A DNA stretch of 64,000 bases, from positions 1-64,000 of the forward strand of contig JAIOZI010000013.1 of assembly GCA_021740785.1 (NCBI GenBank). Reading direction: 5' to 3'. Position 1 is the stretch's first letter; every line of letters starts with the position of its first letter. Under the pieces are notes generated by a model. The model had not been told where the DNA came from. It saw nothing but the letters and a program-made list of their open reading frames with translations, and searched no databases. A program made the translations under genes and the position numbers. This document shows, piece by piece, positions 6,539-61,426 of the stretch. Source of the DNA: Melioribacteraceae bacterium. Lineage in GTDB: Bacteria; Bacteroidota; Ignavibacteria; Ignavibacteriales; Melioribacteraceae.

Positions 6539-6543
6539 AATTT

Positions 6544-14961: not shown

Positions 14962-15015
14962 AAATTGTTTGAATAAATGGATTCAAAATATAAACAAATG
15001 ATAATAAGGCTGTAT

Positions 15016-32249: not shown

Positions 32250-32276
32250 TTAGATTGTTCATTTGCCGTCTGATTC

Positions 32277-32403
32277 AGAGCTTGTGTGAAAATTGTAGAG
32301 CGAAATTTATTTCGCTCTAGGATGTTGTTTAAATGTGCTAAATTCATAATTAGCGAGATGAATCTCGGCGTCAGACGGGCTCTACAATTTTCACACAGAC
32401 TCT
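32277..32403. repeat. nested inverted-repeat element B, copy 1
   Basis: Outer arms of about 25 bases (32277-32301 with 32379-32403; GTGTGAAAATTGTAGAGC core) enclose two hairpins: a perfect 20-base palindrome GAGCGAAAT/ATTTCGCTC at 32298-32317, and CGAGA/TCTCG with a TGAA loop at 32354-32367. A second copy in reverse orientation lies at 42048-42160. The element fills the gap before the isomerase gene and leaves only its GGAG ribosome site free. Confidence 0.85.
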
Positions 32404-32457
32404 AAAACCGAAGGCAAGTAGTGAAATAGAAATTGTAAATAATAAACGGAGTTCAAA

Positions 32458-33384
32458 ATGAAATTAGGTTACATAACTGCATGCTTTCCACAGTTGAGTT
32501 TAGAAGAAATGGTTAAGTGGTCGGCTTCGGCAGGATTTAATACCTTGGAACTGGCTGCATGGCCGGTCGAAAGCGAAAGAGACTATCAAGCGAGACAGAT
32601 TGATGCGGCAAACTTTAATAAGGATGAAGCTGAGCGTGTTAAAAATTTATTCGCCGAACATAACATGGAAATTTCAGCAATGGCATTCTATGAAAACAAT
32701 CTTCATCCCGATATAGAGAAGAGGAGTTATTTCATCAATCATTTGAAAAGAGTTATTGATACAGCCGAGATGCTGGATGTGGAATTAGTTGGAACATTTG
32801 TTGGGAGCAGACCCGATAAATCTCCTGCCGAAAACATTTTTGAAATCGGGGATGTCTTTCGAGATATTATGAAATATGCTGAAGATAAAGGCAGAAAGAT
32901 TATGATTGAAAACTGCCCCATGGAGAATTGGGTAAAGTTCGGGATGCCGGGCAATTATGCTTATTCACCGGAGCTTTGGGATGCGTTGTTCAATGAAATT
33001 CCCAGTGATAATTTCGGACTCAATTTCGATCCATCTCATTTATATTGGTTGGGGATTGATCATCTCACGGCGGTAAGGGACTTCAGTTCGAAAATATTTC
33101 ACGCACATGCAAAGGATACGGAAATTTTGGATGATGGACTTTACAGTTATGGAGTTTTCGGTGAACAGGTTGATCCGACACCTTGGAAATCGGGCTGGTG
33201 GCGTTACCGTATGCCCGGATGGGGGGAAATTGATTGGCAGTTGTTTATCTCAACACTTCAAGAAGAAGGTTATGATAGTGTGCTTTCGATAGAACACGAA
33301 GACCCAATTTGGGAAGGGTCGGTTGAAAAAACTAAGAAGGGGTTACAACTGGGACTTAAACATCTATCTCAATTTGTGATATAA
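32458..33384 (+). CDS. sugar phosphate isomerase/epimerase (xylose-isomerase-like TIM barrel)
   Basis: A 308-residue protein of the AP-endonuclease-2/xylose-isomerase-like TIM-barrel family. Metal-binding acidic and His residues are visible in IMIENCP (Glu), GLNFDPSHLYW (Asp, His), HAHAKDT and VLSIEHEDP (Glu). There is no signal peptide, so cytoplasmic. GGAG precedes the ATG. It is 18 bases before the GH42-like gene and follows the Gfo/Idh/MocA gene with repeat B between them. Such pairs are known to interconvert or cleave keto-sugars; the substrate is not evident. Confidence 0.9.
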   Translation: MKLGYITACFPQLSLEEMVKWSASAGFNTLELAAWPVESERDYQARQIDAANFNKDEAERVKNLFAEHNMEISAMAFYENNLHPDIEKRSYFINHLKRVIDTAEMLDVELVGTFVGSRPDKSPAENIFEIGDVFRDIMKYAEDKGRKIMIENCPMENWVKFGMPGNYAYSPELWDALFNEIPSDNFGLNFDPSHLYWLGIDHLTAVRDFSSKIFHAHAKDTEILDDGLYSYGVFGEQVDPTPWKSGWWRYRMPGWGEIDWQLFISTLQEEGYDSVLSIEHEDPIWEGSVEKTKKGLQLGLKHLSQFVI

Positions 33385-33401: not shown

Positions 33402-35540
33402 ATGCGAAATCTGTTAAAAGAAAATTACTTTCCATTCGGTTCACAGTATTATAGAGCACCTTCTCCACATAGAGAGGATTGGGATAGTGATTTAAAAAAT
33501 ATGTGTGAACTCGGATTTAATATGGTCAAATATTGGGTTCAGTGGCGGTGGAATAATCCCGGTGAGGATGAATATTATTTTGATGATATCGATGAGTTGA
33601 TGGATTTGGCACAGAAATACAATTTGAAAGTAATGCTGAATACTATTTTTGATGTTGCCCCGGCCTGGATTTACCAAAAATATCCTGATGCTTCAATGAT
33701 AACACTCGGTGGCAAACAAATTGGTCCGCAATCTCAACCGCACAGACAAATCGGAGGATTAGGTTATTGTTTTAATCATGATGGTGTAATTGAACACTTC
33801 TATGAATTTTTAAGCGCTGTTATAGAAAGATACAAAGAACATCCTTCACTTGAAATTTGGAATGTAGGAAGTGAACCTGAATTGACAAGCAGTATGGCTG
33901 AAATGCGTGCTTATGCCGATAATGCAGAAAAGATTGACGATATGTTGTGTTACTGTGATAACTGTAAAAGAAAATTCAGAGGCTGGCTGAGTGAGAAATA
34001 TCAAAGTATTGATGAATTAAATGAATCGTGGAATCGCAATTACAAATCTTTTGAGGAAGCCGAATTACCTAAAACTCGGAACACATTCAATGATATTATT
34101 GATTGGAGAATGTTCTTCGTTCATACGCTTGGAGAAAATGTAAAGAAGAGATTTGAAGTCGCAAAGGGTATAGATGAAGGCAGACATCCGTTAATGTGTC
34201 ACCACGTATTTATTCAAGGATTCCCCATCACATCAACTGCGAACGATCCTTGGAATGTTGGTCAATACGGAGATCTTCACGGCTTTACGCAAATGGATGA
34301 TGCCGCGATGATTGATATATTAAGATCCTGCGCAAAAGATAAACCAGTAATATCGGCAGAGATGCTTATGCTCCCCGGATACACACTGGATCTTCCGAAC
34401 AGTATAGATGAAAATGATATAAAACGTTTCATTTTTAGTGGTGTTGCAGGTAATCAAAAGGGATTTATTTTTTGGCAGTACCGACCGGAGATTCTCGGAA
34501 GGGAAGCTCCAACTTGGGGATTGACAACTTTAGACGGTAAACAGACCGGGTGGTTGAAGTCTTTCGCTGAGATTGGACAGGTTCTTCAAAAAAACAAAGA
34601 CTTACTTTTTGATGGTAAACCGGAAAAAGCTGAGGTTGCAATTCTCTATAACCCTGAGAATATGATATTTGCCTGGGCATCAACCGGTAATGAAAAGAAT
34701 GCCACCGATTCGTTGCTTGGATATCACAGAGCATTGCACGAATATAATTATAATGTCGATTTTATTCATCCGGTGGAATTTGATAAGGATATCCTTTCTA
34801 ATTATAAGGTGTTGGTTGTTCCGTTTCCTTATGTAATTAATAAAGCTATAGCTTCTGCTATTAAAGGATTTGTTGAAAACGGCGGCTTGCTGATCGGGGA
34901 AAGTTATTTCGCAGGATGGAATGTTGAACATGGACACCATGAAAAAGTTGTGCCCGGTTATGGAATGAATCAAGTGTTCAAAGTTTATCAGGGTGTTGTT
35001 GATCCCGCAGATAAAACTGATGGTGTCAATATCAAATTAATGGAAAGCTTATCAAAGGTGAATAAAGGAGATATCATAAAAGGAAGATTGTCATTAGAGA
35101 GATTAGTTCTAAACGGGGCAGTTAAGCTTGCTGAATTTGAAGACGGATCACCTGCTGTAACAATCGCTGAATACGGAAAAGGTAAAGCAGCTGCCATCGG
35201 TTCATATATCGGGCTGCCTGTTCATAGAGAGAACAACTTAGGTAATGCAAAATTTATTGCAGGACTCGTTGATACATACGGAAATATTGAAAAAACAAAA
35301 GTAGATGGTGTTAACAGAATACGAGTTGATACTTTATATGATACGAATCAAAACTTAATGCTCATAATTCAGAATAAAGAAAGTGAGCCGGTTAAAACCA
35401 AAATAGAAATGAAAATTAACATCGAAAGAAATCTTAAAGAACAATTTGGGAAGGGAAACCTATCCTTAAATAAAACTGATACCGGTTGTGAATTTGAAGT
35501 TGAGTTGAAAGCTAAAGAGGTTAAGGTATTCTGTGGTTAA
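33402..35540 (+). CDS. GH42-like beta-galactosidase family protein
   Basis: A 712-residue cytoplasmic glycosidase with GH42 architecture: TIM barrel (1-390), a GATase-like trimerisation domain (about 400-610, LVVPFPYVINKAIASA and GGLLIGES), and a C-terminal small beta-domain. The likely acid/base is Glu158 (IWNVGSEPE) and the nucleophile Glu320 (VISAEMLML). The cysteine cluster CYCDNCKRKF at 183-192 matches the zinc site of GH42 enzymes. The segment around HRQIGGLGYCFNH is typical. GGAG precedes the ATG. Its end overlaps the MFS gene by eight bases, suggesting that the carrier brings in its substrate. Confidence 0.87.
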   Translation: MRNLLKENYFPFGSQYYRAPSPHREDWDSDLKNMCELGFNMVKYWVQWRWNNPGEDEYYFDDIDELMDLAQKYNLKVMLNTIFDVAPAWIYQKYPDASMITLGGKQIGPQSQPHRQIGGLGYCFNHDGVIEHFYEFLSAVIERYKEHPSLEIWNVGSEPELTSSMAEMRAYADNAEKIDDMLCYCDNCKRKFRGWLSEKYQSIDELNESWNRNYKSFEEAELPKTRNTFNDIIDWRMFFVHTLGENVKKRFEVAKGIDEGRHPLMCHHVFIQGFPITSTANDPWNVGQYGDLHGFTQMDDAAMIDILRSCAKDKPVISAEMLMLPGYTLDLPNSIDENDIKRFIFSGVAGNQKGFIFWQYRPEILGREAPTWGLTTLDGKQTGWLKSFAEIGQVLQKNKDLLFDGKPEKAEVAILYNPENMIFAWASTGNEKNATDSLLGYHRALHEYNYNVDFIHPVEFDKDILSNYKVLVVPFPYVINKAIASAIKGFVENGGLLIGESYFAGWNVEHGHHEKVVPGYGMNQVFKVYQGVVDPADKTDGVNIKLMESLSKVNKGDIIKGRLSLERLVLNGAVKLAEFEDGSPAVTIAEYGKGKAAAIGSYIGLPVHRENNLGNAKFIAGLVDTYGNIEKTKVDGVNRIRVDTLYDTNQNLMLIIQNKESEPVKTKIEMKINIERNLKEQFGKGNLSLNKTDTGCEFEVELKAKEVKVFCG

Positions 35541-36825
35541 TCACTTTAGGTTTCGCATCAATGATAAAAATTACATTAAGAGAAATTTCTTCCTGAATGT
35601 TTTAGATGGTTCTGTTTTCGCATTTGGAATAAATTTCGTTTCATTAACAACAATTTTGCCCCTGCTGGTAAAACAAATTGGTGGGACAAATATATCAGTA
35701 GGATTGATACCTGTGATTTGGACGATGGGATTTAATTTCCCCCAAATATTCATAGCGAACTTTACAAGAAAACAGTTGAAGAAGAAACCGGTGGTTTTAA
35801 AGACGGCTTTTATTCAAAGATTACCATGGCTTCTGCTCGGCGTTATTACCTTGTTATTTTTCGATAATGTATCGCCGGATACTGGTCTGATTTTGTTTTT
35901 TGCTGGATTTGCATTAGCCGCCGTCGGCGGTTCAGTTAACATGCCCGCATGGTTTGATTTGGTCTCTAAAGTTACTCCCGTAAATTTGAGAGGCAGATTA
36001 TTTGCGGTAAGAGTTACACTTGGCGCAGTCTTCGGAATTTTCGCAGGATACATTGCTAAACAAGTTTTGGATACAATGGTATTCCCGGAAAGTTATTCGC
36101 TCTTATTTTTTGTCGCATTTATTTTTATGATGAGTTCATATGTTTTTATAATTTTCCTAAAAGAAGAGACAATAAACCCGTCAAAGCAAGTGATAAGGTC
36201 AAAAGATTTCCTGCTTAGCCTGCCGCAAATATTGAGAAGTGAAAGAAATTACCGGAACTACTTAATTTCTGATGCATTGATGATAATGGCGGGAATGTCT
36301 CATGGTTTCTTTACTGTTTACGCTTTCGATAAATTTATACTATCTCCGGGATATGCAGGTTCATTCACTATTGTAATGACTTTAGCAACGGTGTTTGGAA
36401 GTATTCTCTTCGGTTTCCTTGCCGATAGAAAAGGTCATCGTGTGAATTTAATGTTTGCGGCTTTATTTACTTTAACAGCTTGCGTAACAGCAATAATTGT
36501 TAACCAAGTTGAGTTATATTATTTGGTCTTTGTGTTTTCCGCATTAACAATATCCCTAATACAAGTATCCCGGCTGACTATAATCGCAGAACTCAGTAAT
36601 GATGAAGAGAGACCAACCTATGTAGCATTAACCAATTTGATAACCGTACCGTTTACATTAATCGGAATTGCCGGAGGTGTAATCGCAAATAATTACGGCT
36701 ACGAACCGGTTTTTATTATCTCGGCAGTTTTCGCGCTTCTCGCATTTTTCTGGATCAAGTATATGATGTATGAACCAAGAAAGAAACAGCATGCAACATT
36801 TCTATACGAGGAAAACAATGGATAG
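35533..36825 (+). CDS. MFS transporter
   Basis: A 430-residue inner-membrane carrier with about twelve helices. The conserved loop motif appears as GFLADRKGHRVNL after helix six, and the first half has GRLFAVRVTLGAVFG. The start is GTG inside the last codons of the GH42-like gene, and its stop lies inside the first codons of the first GH10-like gene; each overlap is eight bases, so translation of three genes appears coupled. The likely cargo is the oligosaccharide or sugar acted on by the neighbouring enzymes (inference). Confidence 0.9.
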   Translation: MVNHFRFRINDKNYIKRNFFLNVLDGSVFAFGINFVSLTTILPLLVKQIGGTNISVGLIPVIWTMGFNFPQIFIANFTRKQLKKKPVVLKTAFIQRLPWLLLGVITLLFFDNVSPDTGLILFFAGFALAAVGGSVNMPAWFDLVSKVTPVNLRGRLFAVRVTLGAVFGIFAGYIAKQVLDTMVFPESYSLLFFVAFIFMMSSYVFIIFLKEETINPSKQVIRSKDFLLSLPQILRSERNYRNYLISDALMIMAGMSHGFFTVYAFDKFILSPGYAGSFTIVMTLATVFGSILFGFLADRKGHRVNLMFAALFTLTACVTAIIVNQVELYYLVFVFSALTISLIQVSRLTIIAELSNDEERPTYVALTNLITVPFTLIGIAGGVIANNYGYEPVFIISAVFALLAFFWIKYMMYEPRKKQHATFLYEENNG

Positions 36826-38485
36826 AAGAAACTTCATTAGGAATTCTTTGATAGGCAGTATTGGAGCTGTTGCTGCAGCTAATTCAATATTTTCAGCACC
36901 GGAAATCCTAACGAAATCGAGGACTGCTCGAAGTACTGCTGCGGGTGAACTTTTATTTAAACCGGTTATTATCCAAAAAGGCATGGGACCGCATATTTAC
37001 GATTTGGTTTGGACAACCGATAATGATTGGGATACTTTTTATTCAAATATTTCACTCACATCTCAGGGGATAAAGCTTTCGGATACTAAAGGAAAGAGGA
37101 AGTTTGGAATAAACGCAAGATGGAATGTGGAAGGATTCGGATATACGAATATTACTGCCGATAATGGCGGGGAATTTTATGAGCTGCCGCCGAATGGAAA
37201 GTTAAAAGAATACATCCTTCAATTCGAATTTGCCAAGAGCCGCATTGTAAGAAATGAAAAACGAATTGAACTTCATTCGAGAAATGGTTGGCAGCCCGCG
37301 TCTGAAATATCCGGACTGCATTCATTATCCCGTAATCTTTTTGAAGATGCTTCGAAGATTATTAATGATACGGAAAAGTGTGCACGGCTTGCTCAGCAAA
37401 GCTTGATGTATGCACTTTGGGCAGGTGAAAAACTCGAATTGGATAAGGCAAATTTTGAAATAGAAATGATGGGAAAAAGAAATGATTTTTTTATCGGCTG
37501 CGACGCCAGAGCTTTTTACCAGATGGATCAAGATATCTTTTTAGAAAATTTTGTGCCTCTTTTTAACTATGCCAATATCACCTTCGTTCCTCAAAGTAAT
37601 AATGCAGTCAATAGAGATTTTGAACCTCAAATGGGTAAGCATAATTATGCAATTCGTGATCATTTAATCGATACGCTGGCGCAGCATGGAATTAAATCTC
37701 AAGGCAGGTTGCTTTACTGGTACCATGATTGCTGTATGCCGGATTGGATGCGTGGAATGAGTTATGATAGTTTATTGAAATATGTTGAAAGAAATACTAA
37801 AGAAGTGCTTGAACATTTTGGAGATAGAATGTATGCATGGGAAATGGTAAATGAGCTCCATGACTGGGCAAACGAATTTCATCTTGTTCATAATCAAATA
37901 AATGAATTAACCGGAATCATAACCAATGCTGCCAAAGCAGCCGTACCAAATGTAAAGCGGACAATTAACAATTGCTGCCCGTTTGCCGAATACGTTGGAA
38001 TGAAAAGATATTCGGGAAGCGCCGCTGTTCACCCTCAGAGAACGCCAATCCAATTTACACGCGATATTTTAGCTGCCGGAATTGATATCGATATAATTGA
38101 ACAGCAGATGTATTTCCCGTATAGAGATTTGCAGGACACAATTATGCTGATTGAACGTTATGAAGAGTTTGGCAAACCAATGCATATTTCGGAAATCGGT
38201 TGTCCAGGCGGACCTACTGAATACTCCGTTAAAATGGGAAGCGAACCGTTCCCGCCTGGCGAACCTTATTTGTGGCATCATCATTGGGACGAAGAAACAC
38301 AAGGTGATTGGCTTGAACAGTTTTATACTTTGATATATAGTAAACCTTACATAAAAGCAGGCAACTGGTTTGATTTTGTCGAGCCGCATTCATATATGCA
38401 GAACGGAGCGCTATTAAAAAACATAAAAGGTGAGAAGAAAGCATCGTACCATAGATTTAAAAAAGTGGTCGATAGGTTTATCTAA
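36818..38485 (+). CDS. divergent GH10-like glycosidase 1 (Tat signal)
   Basis: A 555-residue exported enzyme. MDRRNFIRN at the start followed by a hydrophobic stretch is a Tat-type signal. An N-terminal domain (about 40-215, NVEGFGYTNITADNGGEFY) precedes a GH10-like barrel. The acid/base is Glu346 (YAWEMVNEL) and the nucleophile Glu459 (MHISEIGCPGG). The canonical GH10 ENxMK, GHTLVWHSQ, NDYN and QGH motifs are replaced (YANITFVPQ, GRLLYWYHDCCMPDW, INNCCP, EQQMYF). I chose ATG 36818 behind GAGGAAA because the RR signal begins there. First of five consecutive paralogues. Substrate unknown; plain xylanase is doubtful. Confidence 0.85.
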   Translation: MDRRNFIRNSLIGSIGAVAAANSIFSAPEILTKSRTARSTAAGELLFKPVIIQKGMGPHIYDLVWTTDNDWDTFYSNISLTSQGIKLSDTKGKRKFGINARWNVEGFGYTNITADNGGEFYELPPNGKLKEYILQFEFAKSRIVRNEKRIELHSRNGWQPASEISGLHSLSRNLFEDASKIINDTEKCARLAQQSLMYALWAGEKLELDKANFEIEMMGKRNDFFIGCDARAFYQMDQDIFLENFVPLFNYANITFVPQSNNAVNRDFEPQMGKHNYAIRDHLIDTLAQHGIKSQGRLLYWYHDCCMPDWMRGMSYDSLLKYVERNTKEVLEHFGDRMYAWEMVNELHDWANEFHLVHNQINELTGIITNAAKAAVPNVKRTINNCCPFAEYVGMKRYSGSAAVHPQRTPIQFTRDILAAGIDIDIIEQQMYFPYRDLQDTIMLIERYEEFGKPMHISEIGCPGGPTEYSVKMGSEPFPPGEPYLWHHHWDEETQGDWLEQFYTLIYSKPYIKAGNWFDFVEPHSYMQNGALLKNIKGEKKASYHRFKKVVDRFI

Positions 38486-38502
38486 TGTGTAATACCAAGA
38501 CT

Positions 38503-38609
38503 GTCATTCTGATGGAGCGAAGCGACTGAAGAATCTCAATCTAAGTAATTCGAAAAATATTAATGTGAGATTCTTCGCCCCGATAAAAAACATTGGGACT
38601 CAGAATAAC
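38503..38609. repeat. inverted-repeat element A, copy 2
   Basis: Outer arms GTCATTCTGA (38503-38512) and TCAGAATAAC (38600-38609) pair with one mismatch, and inner arms GAAGAATCTCA (38528-38538) and TGAGATTCTTC (38566-38576) pair perfectly. The layout matches the copy at 27206-27307. It sits between the first two GH10-like genes. Confidence 0.78.
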
Positions 38610-38650
38610 AATAGTGAATGATTGTAAACAACACAAAAGGAAAAATAAAA

Positions 38651-40312
38651 ATGAGAAGACGGGATTTTCTTCGCAACACAATGCTCACGGGTGTTGGATT
38701 ATCGGTTGGTTCAACAATAATGGGAGCTCCAACTGTTATCACTTCGAAACGGACTCCGACCAACACTGAAAAAGGGGAGTTGATCTTTAAGCCTGTATTT
38801 GTGCAGAGGGGTAAAGGTCCGCATTTACTTGATTGGGCTTATGCTTCGGATAATAATTGGGATGCATTCTATTCAAATATTGCTGCGAATAATAATGGCG
38901 TAGTAATTAGCGACACCGGGGGAACAGAAAAATTTGGAATCGATGTTCGGTGGCATGTTGAAGGATTCGGTTATATTTTTATAACTGCAGATAATGGCGG
39001 CGAATTCTATTCACTCCCGGAGAATGGTAAATCAAAGGAACTTAATCTCAATTATGAATTGGCGAAGAGCCGGGTATTTAGAAATAGAAAAAGAAAAGGG
39101 AATTATTCACCATCGAGGGAAACAGCAGCCCTTCTTGACTTATCGGAGCAGTTACTTGAAGATTCACAAAAATCATTAAATGATGAGCTGAGGTTTTCAA
39201 AGCTTGCTCAAACTTCTCTCTATTATGCAATGACAGCAGGTGAAAAACTCGAAATTGAGAAAGCGGAAAGTATAATTAATAATGTTGGTTACCGTCCCGA
39301 CTTTTTTATCGGGTGTGATGCAAGAGGATATTTACAAATGGATCCTGATTTGTTTATGGATTTATTTGAGCCAGCGTTTAATTATGCAACCATCACGCAT
39401 TATTTGAAAAGTGAAAAGTATCAAGACTTTGAACCGCGTGAAGGTGAGAAGCAATTCAATCTAAGAACGGCGCTTCACAAAGAATTAAGAAAGAGAAATA
39501 TAACAGTTGAAGGCAGACCCCTTTTCTGGTTTTATAGAACGGTTACTCCCGATTGGCTGAGAAACAAATCTTATCATCAGTTATTGAAATATGTTGAATC
39601 GCATACAAAGGAAGTTGTTGGTCATTATGGAGATGAAATGTATGCATGGGAAGTTATGAACGAAGCACATGATTGGGCAAATGAGCTTCAGTTAACTCCC
39701 GATCAAATTGTTGAAGTTACAAAGCTTGCATGTGATGTTGCTAAGGATACTAATCCAAAAGTCCACAGGTTGATTAATAATTGCTGCCCCTTTGCCGAAT
39801 ATGTTCAACTGAAAAAGTGGGGAGAACTTGATGCAAAATATCCTCAGCGCACACCCGTTAAATTTATGCGGGATTTGGTTGATGCAGGTGTTGAGTTTAC
39901 GATAACCGGGCAGCAAATGTATTTTCCTTATCGTGATTTACAGGATACAATAATACTTATCGAACGTCACGAGCAATTCGGCAGACCGGTTCAACTTACC
40001 GAAGTTGGCGCTTCTTCGGGTCCGACTAAAGAATCCGTAAATGACGGCAGGTTGGCAATTCCTAATGAACCTTATATTTGGCATCGCAACTGGGATCAAG
40101 ATCTTCAGGCTGATTGGCTCGAAGGACTTTACACCCTGGCTTACAGCAAACCGTGGATCGAAGCTGTTAATTGGTATGATTTCGTTGACCCGTATTCATG
40201 GATAAAAGAAGGCGGATTAATACAATCTCCGAACGGAGAAAAGAAAGAAGCTTACAATCGAATTATTGATTTGCAAAATAAATGGAAATCTTTGGGAATT
40301 AAGAAAGGGTAG
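38651..40312 (+). CDS. divergent GH10-like glycosidase 2 (Tat signal)
   Basis: A 553-residue paralogue with a Tat-type start MRRRDFLRN. The N-terminal domain carries HVEGFGYIFITADNGGEFY; the barrel has Glu338 (YAWEVMNEAHDW) and Glu451 (QLTEVGASSG) as acid/base and nucleophile. The altered subsite motifs are shared: ATITHYLKS for ENxMK, GRPLFWFYRTVTPDW for GHTLVWHSQ, INNCCP for NDYN. I chose ATG 38651, preceded by AAAAGGAAA; the frame extends to an ATG at 38618 that would put eleven residues before the RR motif. Two bases separate it from the next paralogue. Confidence 0.85.
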   Translation: MRRRDFLRNTMLTGVGLSVGSTIMGAPTVITSKRTPTNTEKGELIFKPVFVQRGKGPHLLDWAYASDNNWDAFYSNIAANNNGVVISDTGGTEKFGIDVRWHVEGFGYIFITADNGGEFYSLPENGKSKELNLNYELAKSRVFRNRKRKGNYSPSRETAALLDLSEQLLEDSQKSLNDELRFSKLAQTSLYYAMTAGEKLEIEKAESIINNVGYRPDFFIGCDARGYLQMDPDLFMDLFEPAFNYATITHYLKSEKYQDFEPREGEKQFNLRTALHKELRKRNITVEGRPLFWFYRTVTPDWLRNKSYHQLLKYVESHTKEVVGHYGDEMYAWEVMNEAHDWANELQLTPDQIVEVTKLACDVAKDTNPKVHRLINNCCPFAEYVQLKKWGELDAKYPQRTPVKFMRDLVDAGVEFTITGQQMYFPYRDLQDTIILIERHEQFGRPVQLTEVGASSGPTKESVNDGRLAIPNEPYIWHRNWDQDLQADWLEGLYTLAYSKPWIEAVNWYDFVDPYSWIKEGGLIQSPNGEKKEAYNRIIDLQNKWKSLGIKKG

Positions 40313-40314
40313 GA

Positions 40315-42018
40315 ATGAAACGAAGAGACTTTATCAGGAACTCAGCTTTAGTTGGTGTAGGTGGATTAGCTGCTGCAAATTCAATTTTTTCAGCCCCGAC
40401 AATTTTAACCGAACGAAGAGTTCGAAAATCTACTGAAAAAGGAACAGCGATTTTTAAACCCTACATTGTGCAGTCTGGGTCAGGACCCCACTATGGAATG
40501 GTAAATTCATTAAAAACACTTGGCGAAAAAGATTGGGCATTGCCGCAGTGGGCATTCGCAAGCGATGAAAATTGGGACGCTTTTTATTCTAATATTTTTG
40601 CTTATCCGGATGGTGTGAAAATTTCGGATTCCGAAGGAAGAAAAAAGTTCGGTATTAATGTTAGATGGAATGTTGAGGGTTTCGGATTTATTTATATGAC
40701 TGCGGATAACGGGGGAGAGCATTACGAACTGCCTCCTGTCGGAAACGAAATAAAATTCAATTTGAATTTTGAACTTGCGAAATCAAGACTGGTTAAAAAT
40801 AGAGAAAGGTACAACCAATTTATTGAAGAAGGATATAAACCCGAGAAAGATGTACAGGCATATCTTGATTTGAGTGAAGAATATTTTCACGATGCGCAAA
40901 GAGTCTCAGTTGATGAGTGGAAAAGAGCGCAGTTGGCTCAGAAATCATTGTACTATTCAATGTGGGGCGGAGAAAAATTAGAACTTGATAAAGCTAGAAA
41001 AGAGATTGTAATTCGTGGTCATCGTCCGGACTTTTTTATCGGATGTGATACAAAAGGCTATCCACATATGGAAAAGGATTATTTCCTGGATATGTTCAGT
41101 GATGTTTTTAACTACGCAACTATCACACACTATTTACCGAGATTTGAAAAAGAAGAAGGAAAGTATACTTATCTCGATAGAGATGAACAGGTTCGGGAAC
41201 TGAGAAAAAGAGGTGTTACAGTTGAGGGTAGACCGATATTTTGGTCGGCGGATTGCTGTATGCCCGACTGGATTATGAAGAAGAGTTATCCCGAATTATT
41301 AAAATATTTAGAAAAACATACGCGTGAAGTAGTGGGGCATTACGGAGAACAAATGTATGCATGGGAAATTATTAACGAAGCTCACGATCCGGGCAACCCG
41401 CTAAAATTAACTCCGGATCAGATGGTTGAAGTAGCAAAGTTAATTGCCGATGTTGCAAAAGATACCAATCCAAATGTACACAGATTAATAAATAACTGCT
41501 GCCTTCAGGGGGATTACGTTCAATTAATGGATTGGAGTACGGTTGATAAAAAATTTGATATCATCACTCCGCATAGATTTATAAAAATGTGTCATGAAGC
41601 AGGAGTTGATTTTGATATAACGGGTCAGCAGTTGTATTTCCAATATACGAACCGTGATTTAGCGGATAATATTAGAATGACAGAAAGATTGAAAAAATAT
41701 GGAAGACCCATACAAATAACAGAAATAGGTACCACAGCCGGTCCGACAAAAGAATCTGTTATGTCCGGAGAAGTTGGAATACCTGAACTGCCGTATTCTT
41801 GGCATCGGCATTGGGATAATGAGCTTCAGGCTGAATGGATGGAACAGATTTATACAATTTTCTATGCAAAGGATTGGGTGGAAGCAATTAATTGGTATGA
41901 TTTTGTCGATCCGTATTCTTTTATAGATAACGGCGGATTTTTAAGTTCACCCGAAGGTCCGGCAAGACCGATTTATGAACGATTAAAATCCATGCAGGAT
42001 AGCTGGAGGAAATTGTAG
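40315..42018 (+). CDS. divergent GH10-like glycosidase 3 (Tat signal)
   Basis: A 567-residue paralogue, the longest of the five because of an insertion near residue 60 (HYGMVNSLKTLGEKDWALP). The Tat-type start is MKRRDFIRN with SIFSAP at the likely cleavage region, as in copy 1. Acid/base Glu355 (YAWEIINEAHD) and nucleophile Glu470 (IQITEIGTTAG). After the acid/base the sequence is PGNPLKLTPDQ where the other copies have WANE, and the Trp-His region reads WSADCCMPDW, so its active-site rim differs from copies 2, 4 and 5. GGGTAGG precedes the ATG and overlaps the end of copy 2. Confidence 0.85.
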   Translation: MKRRDFIRNSALVGVGGLAAANSIFSAPTILTERRVRKSTEKGTAIFKPYIVQSGSGPHYGMVNSLKTLGEKDWALPQWAFASDENWDAFYSNIFAYPDGVKISDSEGRKKFGINVRWNVEGFGFIYMTADNGGEHYELPPVGNEIKFNLNFELAKSRLVKNRERYNQFIEEGYKPEKDVQAYLDLSEEYFHDAQRVSVDEWKRAQLAQKSLYYSMWGGEKLELDKARKEIVIRGHRPDFFIGCDTKGYPHMEKDYFLDMFSDVFNYATITHYLPRFEKEEGKYTYLDRDEQVRELRKRGVTVEGRPIFWSADCCMPDWIMKKSYPELLKYLEKHTREVVGHYGEQMYAWEIINEAHDPGNPLKLTPDQMVEVAKLIADVAKDTNPNVHRLINNCCLQGDYVQLMDWSTVDKKFDIITPHRFIKMCHEAGVDFDITGQQLYFQYTNRDLADNIRMTERLKKYGRPIQITEIGTTAGPTKESVMSGEVGIPELPYSWHRHWDNELQAEWMEQIYTIFYAKDWVEAINWYDFVDPYSFIDNGGFLSSPEGPARPIYERLKSMQDSWRKL

Positions 42019-42047
42019 TCTAGTAAAATTAACGTCCGCCTCAACCG

Positions 42048-42160
42048 GCTGTGTGAAAATGTTAATTGTAGAGCGAGATTCATCTCGCTAAGTTTGAAAT
42101 TAGCATTATTTAGCTGGATTTTTGAGCGAAATAAATTTCGCTCTACAATTTTAACACAGC
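42048..42160. repeat. nested inverted-repeat element B, copy 2 (reverse orientation)
   Basis: Arms beginning GCTGTGTGAAAA (42048) and ending TTTTAACACAGC (42160) enclose the hairpins AGCGAGA/TCTCGCT with a TTCA loop (42072-42089) and the palindrome GAGCGAAAT/ATTTCGCTC (42124-42143). Its reverse complement aligns with copy 1 at 32277-32403 over most of the length. The 263-base gap it occupies between GH10-like genes 3 and 4 shows no other gene. Confidence 0.85.
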
Positions 42161-42281
42161 ATCTTCAACGGACGGACTAAAAACATAGAAATTATTCTGA
42201 GCTTTAGCCCCATTGAAATTTTAGTAATGTGACTAGAGCCGAAATAAAAAGTAATTTATTCACAATCCATCGATTAAACCG

Positions 42282-43865
42282 ATGGCAAAATTTACAAACA
42301 AAAACTTATATACTATGTCCAAATCAAAATTATTATTCAAACCACACTTTGTACAAAACGGAAGAGGTCCGCACATTGAAGATTTCATATTTGCGACTGA
42401 TCAATACGGGGACGTTTTCAAATCAAACATAAAATTAGATAAAGAGGGAATTGTAATAACAGATTCCGCAGGAATTGAAAAGTTTGGAATAAACTTACGC
42501 TGGAACGTAGAAGGCTACGGATACCTGTTCATCGGCGCCGATAACAGGGGAGAGTACTATTCGATTGAAAAAGATAAAAAATATACGTTCAATCTAAACT
42601 ATGAATTAGCAGGGTCACGTGTAACAAGAAACGAAAAAAGACTAGAAACTTTTTTAAAAGATGGATTTATTCCATCGCGCGAGATTGCGGCTCTTCACAA
42701 TTTATCGCAAGAATATTTATATGATGCAGAAAAGTCAAAGGATAAAAATGAAAATGCTGCGGCTATAAAATCACAGACTGCATTAAAACATGCCCTCTGG
42801 GTAAGCGATCTGCTGGAACTGGAAAAATCAAAATTTGATGTAGAAAAAATTGGTTATAGAAAAAACTTTTTATTCGGATGTGATACCCGTGGATACTTTC
42901 AAATGGATAAAAATATATTCATGGAAACATTTACGGAGCTATTCAATTATGCAACGATTACACATTATTTAAAAGGGGATGTAATTGATTTTGAACCTGA
43001 AGAGGGCAATAAAAAATTCGGAGAGAGAGAGGAACTACTTGATAAGCTGTTGGAAAAAGGAATCACTGTGGAAGGAAGACCACTATTTTGGGTTCATGAC
43101 TGGGTAACCCCTGATTGGTTGAAGAAAAAGACATATAAAGATTTATTGAAATATGTAGATGAACATGTCAGGGTGGTCGTCGATCATTACGGAAGTAAGA
43201 TAAAGGTTTGGGAAGTTGTAAATGAGATGCATGACTGGGCGAACGAACTTCAGCTCAATCAAGAACAGACAATTGAACTAACGAAAATAGCGTGTGAAGC
43301 TGCCCGCGAAACTAATCCCAGTATTGAAATATTAATTAATAATTGCTGCCCGTTTGGAGATTATGTCCAAAAAGGGAAATGGCACAACATTGAAGCAAAA
43401 TACCCGCAGCGAACTCCGCATCAATTCACTAAACAGATTATTGAAGCCGGAGTTGATTTCGATATTATAGGTGTTCAGGTTTACTTTACACACCGTTCTT
43501 CAGCAGATCAAATTTTACAGATTGAACGTTATAAAGAATTTAATAAAAAAGTACATCTTGCCGAAGTTGGATCGCCATCAATTGGAATTAAGCAAGAATT
43601 TATTGATGAAGATAAAGGAAGCTTTTCTCAACATCCGTATGAATGGCACAGGCATTGGGATGAGGAACTGCAAGCCGATTGGCTTGAAAACACATTTACT
43701 TATGCATACGGGCAAGAATTTATTGAAGCCGCTAATTGGTATGATCTTGTTGATCCTTACGGATTTTTAAAGAGTGGAGGTATACTTCGTTCACCGCAAG
43801 GTAAAAGAAAGACTGCTGTCGACAGGCTTTTGAAGCTGCAAGAAAAATTTAAATCGTTAAAATAA
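42282..43865 (+). CDS. divergent GH10-like glycosidase 4 (no signal peptide)
   Basis: A 527-residue paralogue that lacks the Tat-type leader present in the other four. Acid/base Glu315 (KVWEVVNEMHDWANE) and nucleophile Glu428 (VHLAEVGSPS). The barrel opening FLFGCDTRGYFQMDKNIF and GRPLFWVHDWVTPDW are intact, so the enzyme looks functional but cytoplasmic. The second strand region reads IIGVQVYFTHR. The start is unsure: ATG 42282 and ATG 42315 both lack a good ribosome site, and repeat element B ends about 120 bases upstream. Loss of the leader through insertion of the repeat is one explanation; a deliberate cytoplasmic version is another. Confidence 0.8.
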   Translation: MAKFTNKNLYTMSKSKLLFKPHFVQNGRGPHIEDFIFATDQYGDVFKSNIKLDKEGIVITDSAGIEKFGINLRWNVEGYGYLFIGADNRGEYYSIEKDKKYTFNLNYELAGSRVTRNEKRLETFLKDGFIPSREIAALHNLSQEYLYDAEKSKDKNENAAAIKSQTALKHALWVSDLLELEKSKFDVEKIGYRKNFLFGCDTRGYFQMDKNIFMETFTELFNYATITHYLKGDVIDFEPEEGNKKFGEREELLDKLLEKGITVEGRPLFWVHDWVTPDWLKKKTYKDLLKYVDEHVRVVVDHYGSKIKVWEVVNEMHDWANELQLNQEQTIELTKIACEAARETNPSIEILINNCCPFGDYVQKGKWHNIEAKYPQRTPHQFTKQIIEAGVDFDIIGVQVYFTHRSSADQILQIERYKEFNKKVHLAEVGSPSIGIKQEFIDEDKGSFSQHPYEWHRHWDEELQADWLENTFTYAYGQEFIEAANWYDLVDPYGFLKSGGILRSPQGKRKTAVDRLLKLQEKFKSLK

Positions 43866-43876
43866 ATGGAAACATA

Positions 43877-45529
43877 ATGAATCTTAATAGAAGAAATTTT
43901 GTAAAGCGTGGGTTGCTTGCTTCGGCGGCAATCTCAGCATCGCCATTATTAAGTAATGCTGCAACTATATTTCCACAAACTTCCGGCAGCCTTGAAATTA
44001 AAGCTTATCCTCACCCATGGATGGGTCAGCCTACATGGGTTTACCTTACGGATGAAAATGTTGACCCATTTAAATCCCCGGTTAGATTTAATCAAAACTC
44101 AGTTGTTATTGATGATCCGACTGAATTGTTAGGTAAAAGATTTGCAATTAATGCTATTTGGTTTATCGAAGGTTTTGGAAACATTGTACTCGATGCAACT
44201 AATGGCGGCAATCTATATGCAATCGATGATTTCCCCAAAAACTCAAATTTAAATTTTGAGTTTGCCAAATCAAGAGTTGTTAGAAATCGAGAGGTAAAAA
44301 AGAGATATGAAAAAATGGGGACTCATTTTTCAAAAGAAGTTGAACATCTTACAGCTCTCGGCGAAGAATTATTTGAAGATGCGGGGAGTAAATTAACCGA
44401 CGGAGCATTGAGCGGAGAAATTGCCAATAATGCATTGAACTATTTACTCTGGGCGGGCGAAAAAATTGAACTTGAACATGCAAGAAATCAAATCAAGGTT
44501 CAGAACAGAAAAGATGAAGTGCACTTCGGATGTGAATCACGTCAATATATTTGGGCTAAATCAGAGGATATGACAAAACGATTTGTTGAACTTTTCAATT
44601 TTGCAACTGTCACTCATTATGTTTGGGATACATGGTATCCGCTGTTTGAGCCAAAAGAAGGCGATCATAATTTTGGGATTAAGGATGAAATTGTTGATTG
44701 GCTGACCGACAATAATATTCAAATCGAAGGAAGACCTTTGTTCTGGTTTCATCCCGTTGTTACTCCCGACTGGTTAAAAGAGAAAAATTTTAAACAGCTC
44801 AAAGATTATGTTATTAAACATACAGAAGAGGTTGTAGGTCATTACGGAAATAAGATAAGCAGTTGGGAAGTTGTGAATGAATATCACGATTGGGCAAATA
44901 TTCATCACCATTCACCTGAACAGATAACTGAAATTACTAAACTTGCTTGCGATACTGTTAAGGAGGTCAATCCAAATGTAAAAAGATTAATTAATAACTG
45001 TGCGCCCTGGGCTGAATATGCAGCAAGGGGAAGGTATGCAAGATCAAAGGAACAGGCTGAAAGACCTTTACGCTCACCCAGAAAATATATTGAAGATTTG
45101 TTAGATGCCGGAGTTGATTTTGACATTCTCGGAATTCAAGTTTATTTCCCTTATAGAGATCTTTCAGATATTGTGAGAATGCTCGAACGGTTCGAAAAAT
45201 TTAACAAACCGATTTATATAACCGAAATAGGCGCAAGTGCTGGTTATTATGAGCAAGGAATAAAGCTTGATGAAATTAATATCGAAGATGTTCCGTATGA
45301 TTGGCATAGACGCTGGGATGAAGAACTTCAGGCAGATTGGCTCGAAGAGGTTTATAATATTTATTACGCACGAAAAAATATTCATGGAATTAATTGGTAT
45401 GATTTCTCAGACTTCAGACCGTTTATTCGTCACGGTGGATTAGTTAGAGAGGATGCTGCTCCCAAAAGATCGTTTTTTAGATTGCAAGAATTACTCAATT
45501 CATGGGGAAGATTACCTAAAAAATCATAA
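43877..45529 (+). CDS. divergent GH10-like glycosidase 5 (Tat signal)
   Basis: A 550-residue paralogue and the most divergent of the five at its N-terminus (LEIKAYPHPWMGQPTWVYL in place of the FKP..VQ.G.GPH pattern). Tat-type start MNLNRRNFVKRG. Acid/base Glu335 (SSWEVVNEYHDWAN) and nucleophile Glu450 (IYITEIGASAG). GRPLFWFHPVVTPDW, INNCAPW and GIQVYFPYRD show the same replaced subsite motifs as the others. GGAAA precedes the ATG. It ends nine bases before the amylase-like gene. Specificity unknown. Confidence 0.85.
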   Translation: MNLNRRNFVKRGLLASAAISASPLLSNAATIFPQTSGSLEIKAYPHPWMGQPTWVYLTDENVDPFKSPVRFNQNSVVIDDPTELLGKRFAINAIWFIEGFGNIVLDATNGGNLYAIDDFPKNSNLNFEFAKSRVVRNREVKKRYEKMGTHFSKEVEHLTALGEELFEDAGSKLTDGALSGEIANNALNYLLWAGEKIELEHARNQIKVQNRKDEVHFGCESRQYIWAKSEDMTKRFVELFNFATVTHYVWDTWYPLFEPKEGDHNFGIKDEIVDWLTDNNIQIEGRPLFWFHPVVTPDWLKEKNFKQLKDYVIKHTEEVVGHYGNKISSWEVVNEYHDWANIHHHSPEQITEITKLACDTVKEVNPNVKRLINNCAPWAEYAARGRYARSKEQAERPLRSPRKYIEDLLDAGVDFDILGIQVYFPYRDLSDIVRMLERFEKFNKPIYITEIGASAGYYEQGIKLDEINIEDVPYDWHRRWDEELQADWLEEVYNIYYARKNIHGINWYDFSDFRPFIRHGGLVREDAAPKRSFFRLQELLNSWGRLPKKS

Positions 45530-45538
45530 GGAGAAATT

Positions 45539-47887
45539 TTGACTTATTATAATAAGCTGGTAGTTGTTATCGCATTAATTGTTTGTCAATCTATTGTTGC
45601 TCAACAAATTTTAATTAATAAACATGATGCTGAGGTTTGGACACAATCATTATATATCAACGGTGAGTTAATTGATTTTACAAATACCGAAGGAACGGTT
45701 TCGGTGAATGGTATTGAATCACAATATAATATTATTGATGATTTATTTACAGTAAATGTAAAATTAACGGAAGGTGAAAACTTAATATTCTTTACAGTAA
45801 TGAATGAGGGAACATCAATCATTTCCGATTCGTTGATACTTGAATTGGCTTATAATATCAGACCTGAGTTGTATGCTTATGCCTCGGTGGAGAATGACCT
45901 TGTATATCTTCACGCTCAGATTGTTGATAACCCGGATAGCAGTACATTAACTTACGAGTGGAGCGCAGGACAGCAAAATCCTGCTGAACTTTCAATTTCA
46001 AATCCTAATGATACCCTGGCGTCAGTAACATTCCCGGCAAGTGCTCCGAACGGCGAATATTATTTTAATCTTTTTTCCCTCACATCAAACGGTGATACTG
46101 TTCGAGCGGCAACGTTTGTTACTGTTAAGGGGGATTCAATAATTCAATTTCATATTAAACATGATCATGCAGCTTGGATAGATTCCGCAATAATCTATGA
46201 AGTGACACCGTATATTTTCACAGTCCGCGGATCATTCAATGATATCAATAATAAAGTTGAGGATTTTGTTCGCTTAGGAATTAACACTTTATGGATACAA
46301 CCTGTTTTCGGTACTGCAAACGGCGGACAAGGTTACGACATAACTAATTATTTTAAAGTTAGATCCGACCTTGGTACAAAAGCCGAATTAAAATCTCTAA
46401 TTGATAATGCCAAAGCTCATGGATTAAGAGTAATATTCGATTTCGTTCCGAATCATAGTTCGATTCACCACAGGTACGCACAGAATACGATAACTTACGG
46501 GGAGGACTCACACTATTGGGAATTCTATCAAAGAGTGGAAGATGATGTTCCTTATTCTCAGCATTATCATCACAACGGAAATTTTATATATTATTTCTGG
46601 ACAGAACTTCCTAATCTAAATTATCACAACCCGGAAACAAGGAGATGGATTTCCGAAGCTGCCCGGTATTGGGTTGAGGAATTTGATATCGACGGATACC
46701 GTTTCGATGCAGTGTGGGGAACGAATGCACGTAATCCTGATTTCATGAAAGAGTTAAGATTGACTCTGAAGAGATTGAAACCTGATGTATTAATGCTTGC
46801 CGAAGATAAAGCAACATGGGAATCGACATTTGATGAAAACTTTGATCTCGCTTTTGATTGGACACCCGAAGAGAGTTGGGTCTCGCACTGGGTGTGGCAA
46901 ACCAGTTACAGCGAAACCGGGAACCCGACAATTTTCAATTATCCGCTTGAAAATATGCGATCACAATTGCTGCGCGAATCTCTAACTAATAACGAGAACG
47001 GATACTCACCGACTGCTAAAATTCTTAGGTTTATCGGTAATAATGATATCTATCATTTTATTACACATCATGGATTAGAGCGGACTAAAATGGTTGCAGC
47101 AATGATGTTCACTCTACACGGTGTGCCTATGATTTATAACGGTCAGGAAATTGGTGTTGAAGGGCATCCTTATGAAACCGAGTTTCTCTTTTTTCCTGGG
47201 TTCCCAATCGATTACAATGATCCCTATAACTTGTTTCCATTTTACCAAAGACTGATTGAAATCAGAAAAGAATACCCGGCATTAACTAGTGACAATTTTC
47301 AAGAAGTTATAGTTAGTCCCGATAACACAGTTTTCTCATACAGAAGATGGACCGGTGATGAAAACATTTTTACAATCATAAATATGAAATCCGCTTCAGT
47401 TTCTGCTGCTGTACAAATTCCGGTTGATGCTCTTTCGCTCGATTCGTCAAAGACTTATTATATGACCGAATTAATCTCAGGTGAAATAATCAGCGGAATG
47501 CCGGATGAACTTTATTCAGTAAGTATTGATATGGATAGATTCAGTACCAAAGTATTTGTTCTGGCAGACAGCATAGTGCATGTTACGGATATCGAAGAAC
47601 GGAATTATGATTCCGGTATTGTATATGAATTCGATCTTAAGCAAAATTATCCGAATCCTTTTAATCCATTAACCAACATTGAATTTTCATTGCCGAGCAT
47701 TGCGGATGTTAAGCTTGAGATTTATAATGTCATTGGCGAACGGGTGAGAACACTAGTTGATGCTAATTTAAATGCCGGGGTACACAGGGTTCAGTTTAAT
47801 GCTTCAACCTTACCGAGCGGAGTATATCTTTATAGAATCACTAATCAAAATAATTCATTAACGAAGAAGATGATTTTAATCAAGTAG
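45539..47887 (+). CDS. GH13 alpha-amylase-like protein with T9SS sorting domain
   Basis: A 782-residue secreted protein: signal peptide, an Ig-like N-terminal part (about 20-205), a GH13 barrel (about 215-600), and a T9SS C-terminal domain (about 698-782, QNYPNPFNPLTNIEF). GH13 catalytic residues: nucleophile Asp390 (GYRFDAVWG), acid/base Glu422 (LMLAEDKA) and stabilising Asp503. The last lies in FIGNNDIYHF, where most families have NHD, so the transition-state His is Asn. The start is TTG behind AAGGAG. It would cut alpha-glucans at the cell surface, an odd neighbour for GH10-like enzymes and a hint that the target contains alpha-linked glucose. Confidence 0.88.
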   Translation: MTYYNKLVVVIALIVCQSIVAQQILINKHDAEVWTQSLYINGELIDFTNTEGTVSVNGIESQYNIIDDLFTVNVKLTEGENLIFFTVMNEGTSIISDSLILELAYNIRPELYAYASVENDLVYLHAQIVDNPDSSTLTYEWSAGQQNPAELSISNPNDTLASVTFPASAPNGEYYFNLFSLTSNGDTVRAATFVTVKGDSIIQFHIKHDHAAWIDSAIIYEVTPYIFTVRGSFNDINNKVEDFVRLGINTLWIQPVFGTANGGQGYDITNYFKVRSDLGTKAELKSLIDNAKAHGLRVIFDFVPNHSSIHHRYAQNTITYGEDSHYWEFYQRVEDDVPYSQHYHHNGNFIYYFWTELPNLNYHNPETRRWISEAARYWVEEFDIDGYRFDAVWGTNARNPDFMKELRLTLKRLKPDVLMLAEDKATWESTFDENFDLAFDWTPEESWVSHWVWQTSYSETGNPTIFNYPLENMRSQLLRESLTNNENGYSPTAKILRFIGNNDIYHFITHHGLERTKMVAAMMFTLHGVPMIYNGQEIGVEGHPYETEFLFFPGFPIDYNDPYNLFPFYQRLIEIRKEYPALTSDNFQEVIVSPDNTVFSYRRWTGDENIFTIINMKSASVSAAVQIPVDALSLDSSKTYYMTELISGEIISGMPDELYSVSIDMDRFSTKVFVLADSIVHVTDIEERNYDSGIVYEFDLKQNYPNPFNPLTNIEFSLPSIADVKLEIYNVIGERVRTLVDANLNAGVHRVQFNASTLPSGVYLYRITNQNNSLTKKMILIK

Positions 47888-47895
47888 GATTTGTT

Positions 47896-48942
47896 ATGAA
47901 AGTATTGATGATAGGCGGTACGGGATTTATAAGCAGCAACATTGTAAAAAAACTTATTGAAGAAAATCATGAAGTTACTTTAGTTACACGCGGTGAATCA
48001 GAAATAAATTTATTCGATAAAGGGAAAGTGAAATTTGCTTACGGCGACAGGCATGATAAAGAATTTCTAAACAGAATTATTGATACTGATAATTTCGATG
48101 TTCTTTTTGATATGATCGCATACACAGCCGATGAATCTCAAACAATTATTGAAGTTTTCGGAGGTAAAATTCCGAGGTTAATTCACACAAGTACAATCTC
48201 TGTTTATATGGTTTCTGATGTAATTAAAAATCCAATACTCGAAGAAGAGGACAAGCATCCATTAATGAAATTTTGGGATCGTAATCCATTTGGGATGCAG
48301 TATGGAATAGATAAACGGAAATGTGAAGATGTACTTTGGAAAGCACATAATGATGGTAAGTTCGAAGTGTCAATGATCCGAGCTCCTTATGTCTGTGGAC
48401 CGTATGATCCGATGAAGCGTGATTACTTTTGGATTCAAAGAATCTTAGATGGTTCGCCTTTACTCATTCCCGGCAGCGGTGATTACGCCTCACAGCATAT
48501 TTTTGTTGAAGACCTTGCAGAAGCATTTGTTGATTTACTCAAGTATGATGTAACCAAAGGTAAAGCATACAATATAGCATCAGAGGAAATATTTTCACTT
48601 AATGATTATCTAGACGCACTCTGTAATTTACTCGGAAAAAATTCAGAAAGAGTCAATGTTGATTTGGAAGCATTTGAAAAGCTGCCGTTTAGTGTAAGTC
48701 CGGAAGGACATGCGTTTCCTTTCAACACTTACCGCACCGCAATTTTTAGTACAGACAGGGCAAAAAAGGATCTGCAGTTTTCTTCAACACCCTTCGAAGA
48801 TTGGATGCCCGGAACTATTGATTGGTATCTGAATATTTATAAAAAGCCTTCTGTTGGATATGGAAATCGTGATAATGAAATTAAATTTATTGAGAAATGG
48901 AAAAAGTATAAAAGAGAGTTTTTGAAGAAGGTAATTCAATAA
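47896..48942 (+). CDS. NAD-dependent epimerase/dehydratase (extended SDR)
   Basis: A 348-residue cytoplasmic Rossmann-fold enzyme. The glycine motif is GGTGFIS (7-13), and Tyr136 with Lys140 (QYGIDKRK) makes the YxxxK pair. HTSTISVY holds the catalytic Ser/Thr. Family members epimerise or dehydrate nucleotide sugars, or oxidise free sugars. AGGA precedes the ATG, eight bases after the amylase-like gene. The long C-terminal helical part (PFEDWMPGTIDWYLN) is typical. Substrate unassigned. Confidence 0.88.
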   Translation: MKVLMIGGTGFISSNIVKKLIEENHEVTLVTRGESEINLFDKGKVKFAYGDRHDKEFLNRIIDTDNFDVLFDMIAYTADESQTIIEVFGGKIPRLIHTSTISVYMVSDVIKNPILEEEDKHPLMKFWDRNPFGMQYGIDKRKCEDVLWKAHNDGKFEVSMIRAPYVCGPYDPMKRDYFWIQRILDGSPLLIPGSGDYASQHIFVEDLAEAFVDLLKYDVTKGKAYNIASEEIFSLNDYLDALCNLLGKNSERVNVDLEAFEKLPFSVSPEGHAFPFNTYRTAIFSTDRAKKDLQFSSTPFEDWMPGTIDWYLNIYKKPSVGYGNRDNEIKFIEKWKKYKREFLKKVIQ

Positions 48943-49016
48943 ACTCTAACATAGTTAATTCGTCATTCTCTTTCGATTCAAAGGGATATAAGGAAATAAG
49001 TTTTTACTAATAATAA

Positions 49017-52902: not shown

Positions 52903-52904
52903 TA

Positions 52905-53525: not shown

Positions 53526-53527
53526 TT

Positions 53528-54556: not shown

Positions 54557-54565
54557 GGTGAAGAG

Positions 54566-55090: not shown

Positions 55091-55128
55091 TAAAAATACA
55101 TTAACGAAATTTTATAAGAAGGTGACTA

Positions 55129-56232: not shown

Positions 56233-56242
56233 GATGTTTTAT

Positions 56243-56264
56243 CTTTGTTTATCAATAAACAAAG
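56243..56264 (+). promoter_or_regulatory. perfect 22-base palindrome overlapping a ribosome-binding site
   Basis: CTTTGTTTAT and ATAAACAAAG flank a two-base centre between the ABC ATPase stop and the PhyH-type gene. The right arm ends inside the AAAGGAG ribosome site, so an RNA hairpin would mask translation initiation; as DNA it could be a repressor site. There is no T-run, so a terminator is less likely. Confidence 0.5.
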
Positions 56265-56272
56265 GAGAAAGT

Positions 56273-57028: not shown

Positions 57029-57122
57029 TGATTTTTGTTTTACGATTCTCTTGTGTTAGCATGAATTTGATGCGCAGACTTATTACAGCGAAAGTAAATA
57101 TCAATATTGGCGGAGATAATTT

Positions 57123-58004: not shown

Positions 58005-58017
58005 ATACGGTACTATT

Positions 58018-59319: not shown

Positions 59320-59333
59320 AAATTATCAATATC

Positions 59334-60365: not shown

Positions 60366-60370
60366 CATAT

Positions 60371-61396: not shown

Positions 61397-61426
61397 AATC
61401 GAATTATAATTCAATTGGAATGGACT

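Follow-up and report, generated by a model that had tools for sequence, protein, structure and literature searches.

A tandem array within a catabolic gene island

The window analysed here, 64,000 nucleotides from a Melioribacteraceae genome, carries five consecutive plus-strand genes for GH10-like proteins at 36818-45529, and all five reading frames claimed there by the first-pass annotation are present. GH10L-1 (36818..38485), GH10L-2 (ORF 2; 38651..40312), GH10L-3 (40315..42018) and GH10L-5 (ORF 5; 43877..45529), the last of which belongs to the deepest-branching group, encode a Tat leader, an N-terminal domain and a GH10-like barrel; the leader reads MDRRNFIRNS in the first and MRRRDFLRN in the second. 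The product of GH10L-4 (42315..43865) is without leader and predicted to be cytosolic. The start codons are the likeliest ones, picked by comparison with orthologues. The longest open reading frames of genes 1, 2 and 4 begin at 36770, 38618 and 42282, and for gene 1 the start at 36818, already proposed before, is better than the mechanical one. GH10L-2 to -5 are paralogues of GH10L-1 with 37-50% identity. The architecture described earlier, a shared N-terminal domain followed by a GH10-like barrel, was recovered: the N-terminal region is found in all five, and all five lie above the curated cut-off of the Pfam GH10 profile (PF00331; 47.6-80.9 bits versus 22.1), with partial coverage of the profile. 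With the Pfam profiles of GH113 and GH53 the array proteins stayed below the cut-offs (best 22 versus 27 bits and 17.5 versus 24 bits, respectively). Their own genome (4.85 Mb, 99.9% complete) gave no GH10 match other than these five, and a canonical xylan cluster was rejected, since the genome is without further GH10.

The array forms the core of a colinear island that spans about 50 kb and holds some 30 genes; the genes listed here are likewise on the plus strand. The window contains a LacI-type regulator (4040..5098), an ABC sugar importer made up of a solute-binding protein and two permeases (5207..8285), a TonB-dependent receptor with a carboxypeptidase-regulatory-like domain (14977..17889) and, adjoining the receptor, a conserved protein of 731 amino acids (17920..20115) for which Pfam and PDB sequence searches gave no match. 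This protein is conserved across phyla at 42-64% and may replace SusD, for which there was no Pfam match among the window proteins scanned. Then follow a GH106-like protein of the alpha-L-rhamnosidase family (21244..24522), a PfkB kinase above the NCBIfam ribokinase cut-off (24539..25462), a GH39/GH42-like GH-A hydrolase (27367..28824), a DUF6259 protein weakly similar to GH101 (29416..31092), and a Gfo/Idh/MocA dehydrogenase together with a xylose-isomerase-like TIM barrel (AP_endonuc_2; 31089..33384), the latter being the most conserved island gene across phyla. A GH42-like hydrolase and an MFS transporter (33402..36825) lie directly upstream of the array, and a GH13 protein with a T9SS sorting tail (45539..47887) directly downstream. 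An NAD-dependent epimerase/dehydratase and a GH2 protein (47896..51701) come next, and the remainder (51703..63637) encodes a cupin that by inspection resembles phosphomannose isomerase, a further cupin, an AKR, a flavodoxin, a MalK-type ABC ATPase, a PhyH dioxygenase, a nucleoside hydrolase, a solute-binding protein, a Zn-alcohol dehydrogenase, an SMP-30 lactonase and a GH92 protein.

A GH10 barrel behind an unusual N-terminal domain

AlphaFold2 models of ORF 2 (pLDDT 92) and ORF 5 (pLDDT 86) both contain a GH10-type (beta/alpha)8 barrel of about 330 residues, and the PDB matches listed for them are GH10 enzymes or designs on a GH10 scaffold. The top structural match of ORF 2 is the GH10 enzyme XynA (PDB 7d88/7d89; 7d89 with Z 32.1 and rmsd 2.4 over 305 residues), and AcXyn10A (8b73) matches it with Z 32.0; ORF 5 matches 8b73 with Z 29.9 and rmsd 2.7 over 299. 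XynA shows about 20% identity and retains His80 in its GHALFW motif; one of its helices ahead of the barrel also aligns.

The barrel is preceded in the models by about 90 residues of strands followed by three helices. The N-terminal domain of ORF 2, excised for sequence searches (38786..39289, plus strand), matched nothing convincing in Pfam (best E 0.048, one member only), and the best PDB sequence match, with E 0.1, was an unrelated channel. By sequence, the domain matches no known carbohydrate-binding module or other described family in Pfam or PDB. Among 58 related genomes searched, the domain is restricted to the array family.

A conserved active site with a rebuilt -1 surround

For residues E43 to E233 we use what we take to be the Cex numbering. 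Motifs were compared between 28 clade members and 16 canonical GH10 enzymes of the same phylum, and invariance was scored over 81 homologues from Ignavibacteria, KSB1, Neomarinimicrobiota and Rhodothermia. The glutamate on beta-4 that serves as acid/base, preceded by Asn (E349 in ORF 2), and the nucleophile glutamate on beta-7 (E462) are invariant in all 81; their retention in the five array proteins, noticed at first inspection, thus extends to all these homologues. Equally invariant are Asn348, Arg300, Gln433, Tyr435, His351, Asp352, Asn387, Cys233 and Cys389.

The first-pass annotation had further claimed that the motifs contacting xylose at -1 and -2 are replaced by a consistent set. For most of them this was confirmed: His80 is Arg (R300) and His205 is Tyr (Y435) in 28/28 aligned members and 81/81 overall, E43 is T in 26 of the 28, N44 is H, Y or F in all 28, and K47 and Q87 are not kept, so that all -2 contacts are gone. 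The supposed loss of the NDYN motif did not stand, since N169 and Y171 are kept in 28/28, with a six-residue insertion between them, after beta-5. Within the -1 set of GH10 (His80, Trp84, Gln203, His205) both histidines are thus replaced, and Trp84 (78/81) and Gln203 (81/81) are retained; Asn126, Glu127 and Glu233 are also kept in the 28 members. At the position of Trp273 a conserved Trp of the clade (NWYDF) aligns one residue off, and Trp273 is therefore not counted among the lost residues. The residues that differ between paralogue groups beside the catalytic residues are 306, 432, 434, 461 and 528. Group-specific positions are not clearly enriched in the active-site loops (40/183 versus 26/148 in the rest of the barrel).

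The loss of the classic substrate contacts could also be read as decay, the paralogues being kept as non-catalytic glycan-binding proteins. A short GH10 signature ending TE[LIY][DN] is found in 0/81 homologues, in keeping with that reading, although the test is weak, as only 13/20 canonical enzymes match. However, both glutamates, the Asn that precedes the acid/base residue, Gln203 and the positions around them are invariant 81/81, and dN/dS against the nearest orthologue is 0.03-0.08 for ORFs 3-5 (dS 2-3, saturated); for ORFs 1 and 2 dS lies beyond the estimator, so the estimates cover three of the five. On the invariant catalytic residues and these ratios, with dS saturated, decay of the array was rejected and we regard such a role as very improbable. 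The earlier argument that a shared replacement is not decay is borne out by this strong constraint.

The array in other genomes

Ignavibacteria, KSB1, Neomarinimicrobiota, Rhodothermia and unclassified Bacteroidetes MAGs all yielded homologues. Full-length matches occur in 6/296 genomes of Bacteroidota, 8/82 of the KSB1-type phylum and 6/245 of Neomarinimicrobiota, and their carriers always have at least two copies, in tandem. They fall into five orthologous groups, with SH support of 0.986 for group 1 and 1.0 for groups 3, 4 and 5. Since tandem copies in several phyla sort into five orthologous groups, the array is not an oddity of one genome. The gene order 1-2-3-4-5 is usual, genes 1 and 3 being at times moved or missing; in the genomes covered, group 3 is confined to Ignavibacteria and allied Bacteroidota MAGs. 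A twin-arginine motif is present in 12/17 members of group 1, 14/18 of group 2, 9/10 of group 3 and 20/21 of group 5, and in 0/15 of group 4, the assignment being based on the motif and not on a trained predictor; the predicted split between export and cytosol is thus kept between groups across phyla.

PF00331 scores in 13 carriers are bimodal, with 23-87 bits for the clade and 186-352 for canonical GH10 enzymes. Nine of the 13 are without canonical GH10, and carriers with true xylanases keep both kinds. Carriage on plasmids was rejected, as only distant xylanases matched (23-24% identity), and so was viral carriage: no relative was found, and the viral fold matches were other hydrolases.

Relation to AcXyn10A and canonical xylanases

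The array proteins form a monophyletic clade (UFBoot 100), and its sister is AcXyn10A together with one Bacteroidota homologue (UFBoot 100), in a tree that holds few characterised enzymes and in which the PDB rows are fragments from profile-alignment output. A separate, well-supported clade that shares the changed residues in many genomes, as had been anticipated, is therefore real. Among solved structures AcXyn10A is also the nearest by sequence profile (E 8e-28), and by fold it ranks first or close to first; its solved chain has 413 residues versus 512-570 in most clade members. Like the clade it lacks E43, N44, K47 and Q87, and both have a W-[WY]-D-F-V-D motif; unlike the clade it keeps His80 and His205 and is without the beta-5 insertion. 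Canonical GH10 xylanases (Cex, TmXyn10B, Mros_2091) share with the clade the (beta/alpha)8 fold, the catalytic pair, Trp84, Asn126 and Gln203, but have E43, N44, K47, Q87, His80 and His205 and far higher Pfam scores. By fold, Pfam score and catalytic pair the array proteins are members of GH10.

Fsa02490Xyn, 41% identical to AcXyn10A, is a demonstrated endoxylanase that also acted on gellan gum, and its export is predicted to take place in the folded state (PMC12485897); another paper states that the A. clariflavus enzyme itself had not been biochemically characterised (PMC11966585). Because AcXyn10A shares the loss of ENxMK and its 41% relative is a proven endoxylanase, this loss alone cannot exclude xylan as substrate, and by analogy it may be compatible with xylan activity. 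The step from replaced motifs to a new specificity, taken in the first-pass annotation, is therefore not carried by the ENxMK contacts, which the nearest AcXyn10A-type enzymes also lack. Structure prediction and the comparison of aligned residues agreed with it on the GH10 fold and the altered -1 surround; the loss at -2 is not unique, and as a set peculiar to the clade the replacements shrink accordingly. Judged from the alignments, what sets the clade apart from AcXyn10A is Arg300, Tyr435 and the insertion only, and the loss of the -2 motif probably preceded the other changes.

An island shared by several phyla

Between about 12 kb and 63.6 kb (11991-63637) the window has a gene order that recurs in Ignavibacteria, KSB1 and Neomarinimicrobiota (loci L116-L135). 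The recurring order starts with a T9SS-tailed protein, alcohol dehydrogenase, TonB receptor, 731-aa protein, PorV, GH106, ribokinase-type kinase, aldo-keto reductase and GH39-like protein; it continues with a ureidoglycolate-lyase-like protein, DUF6259, Gfo/Idh, TIM-barrel isomerase, GH42, MFS and the GH10-like array, and ends with GH13, epimerase, GH2, cupins, AKR, flavodoxin, ABC, PhyH, nucleoside hydrolase, solute-binding protein, lactonase and GH92. In individual genomes one gene or another is absent or displaced.

RpoB identity to the window genome is 81-82% in two genomes of other Ignavibacteria-type lineages, 64-65% in KSB1 and 57-59% in Neomarinimicrobiota. For the island genes the values within the Ignavibacteria-type lineages and across phyla are 68-69% versus 69-77% (isomerase), 62-64% versus 61-72% (GH42) and 66-68% versus 65-71% (GH10L-2); GH10L-5 and the epimerase drop in some Neomarinimicrobiota. 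Because the island is no less identical across phyla than between lineages within a class, we conclude that it spread horizontally; inter-phylum transfer would be the simplest reading of these comparisons. This makes the island a clear case of a large catabolic unit that crossed phylum borders with its gene order kept.

Some neighbouring genes occur in single lineages. A protein of about 780 amino acids without Pfam match (L007:5939-8278, L015:1597-3915) is paired in five loci with a PIG-L deacetylase; as a rule it lies between the MFS transporter and the array. One KSB1 genome has an aminoglycoside-adenylyltransferase-like (AadA_C) gene just upstream of the array (L012:9135-9953), another locus, also from a KSB1 genome, a pyruvate-formate-lyase-like glycyl radical enzyme near the island (L011:18524-20752).

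Clues to the substrate

The GH106 protein indicates that the glycan probably holds alpha-L-rhamnose. In 15 genomes an MtaA/CmuA-family methyltransferase is encoded near the array, usually right behind it (for example L015:14921-16066, L016:14978, L019:15258 and L025:13438), and its HxC...C motif is kept in 7/7 checked. An MtaB-family protein was found in four loci, a PIG-L deacetylase in eight and a related Pfam sulfatase in two, labels that come from a Pfam scan of one or few members per cluster. These neighbours suggest a glycan with O-methyl, N-acetyl and sometimes sulfate groups in several lineages. At L025 the additional MtaB-family protein lies at 15262-16638, and its small neighbours may be MtaC. 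The island methyltransferase is absent from the window island, and the window's own genome has only 19-29% matches and no orthologue; several genes of the URO-D/methyltransferase family, 25-29% similar to it, lie elsewhere in that genome (G000:C19:27387-33564). The PhyH dioxygenase family represented in the window could act in oxidative demethylation. An Arg at -1 would suit an acidic, charged or otherwise non-xylose sugar, and the gellan activity in the sister group would fit, as a weak hint by analogy, an exopolysaccharide bearing rhamnose and uronate.

Could the array proteins nevertheless belong with AcXyn10A, as xylanases or beta-1,4-glucanases that grip the xylan chain in another way, the copies serving dosage or variously decorated xylans? 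The sister position of AcXyn10A, the same missing -2 residues and the measured endoxylanase activity of its relative, predicted to be exported folded, speak for it. However, His80 and His205, kept by AcXyn10A, are changed throughout the clade, partner genes of the xylan type are unmatched in the island (no Pfam match to GH43, GH11, GH51 or GH67 among the window proteins scanned), true xylanases are kept alongside where they occur, and genes for a rhamnosidase, mannosidase-type and methyl-transfer enzymes are ill-suited to plain xylan. We consider this explanation unlikely, and main-chain xylan an unlikely substrate; in this respect the genomic setting speaks for the new specificity suggested at first inspection.

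GH10 tomatinase is a precedent for the trimming of small glycosides, and exo-acting or small-glycoside hydrolases that trim plant or microbial glycosides such as rhamnosyl-saponins or flavonoids, rather than a polymer, would be consistent with the lost -2 contacts. Pairs of Gfo/Idh and AP_endonuc_2 proteins are typical of 3-keto glycoside routes, and the pair in the island, whose best NCBIfam match, below cut-off, is levoglucosan dehydrogenase, points in the same direction. TonB receptor, T9SS-tailed GH13 and the further hydrolases indicate a large glycan instead, and we rate small glycosides as somewhat less plausible still than xylan.

Discussion

GH10 is regarded almost exclusively as a family of xylanases, and for this reason annotation would call the array proteins endo-1,4-beta-xylanases. 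The data presented here rather lead us to favour, with some reservation, a catabolic island that spread horizontally and serves the breakdown of a single complex heteroglycan, in which the array would supply retaining beta-glycosidases to periplasm and cytosol. The array probably dismantles a complex sugar other than xylan, and most likely the enzymes each cleave their own bond in a single glycan that bears rhamnose and is probably O-methylated. Five distinct specificities are suggested mainly by the retention of the copies in tandem, as an enrichment in the loops is not clear.

In such a pathway the TonB receptor and its partners would bind the glycan and bring it in, and the Tat-exported enzymes 1, 2, 3 and 5 would cut it in the periplasm by double displacement, each at its own beta-linkage or differently substituted residue, assisted by GH106, GH42, GH2 and GH92. 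Fragments could then enter via the MFS and ABC transporters, and enzyme 4 would finish them in the cytosol together with the oxidoreductases, isomerase and kinase.

The clade is a genuine and conserved GH10 branch that has apparently not been described before. No description of clade or island was found in the literature searched, nor do the passages retrieved from the genome papers on KSB1 and Melioribacter contain one; the word undescribed in the first-pass annotation is fair for both. It is tempting to go further and propose a new glycosidase group, to be ranked as a subfamily within GH10 or as a distinct family of GH-A, with four or five members split between periplasm and cytosol, acting on a rhamnose-bearing O-methylated glycan and encoded on an island of about 50 kb that passes intact from phylum to phylum, but taken together this is tentative, with chances a little below even. 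A multi-copy clade with an altered -1 site and a fixed gene set offers testable enzymes for an unnamed glycan, in lineages that are mostly uncultured.

Like polysaccharide utilisation loci of Bacteroidota, the island brings together a TonB receptor, many hydrolases, a regulator and a transporter. It differs from them in the lack of a SusD match, in the combination of T9SS and Tat export, in uptake by ABC and MFS transporters and in its colinear copies in KSB1 and Neomarinimicrobiota.
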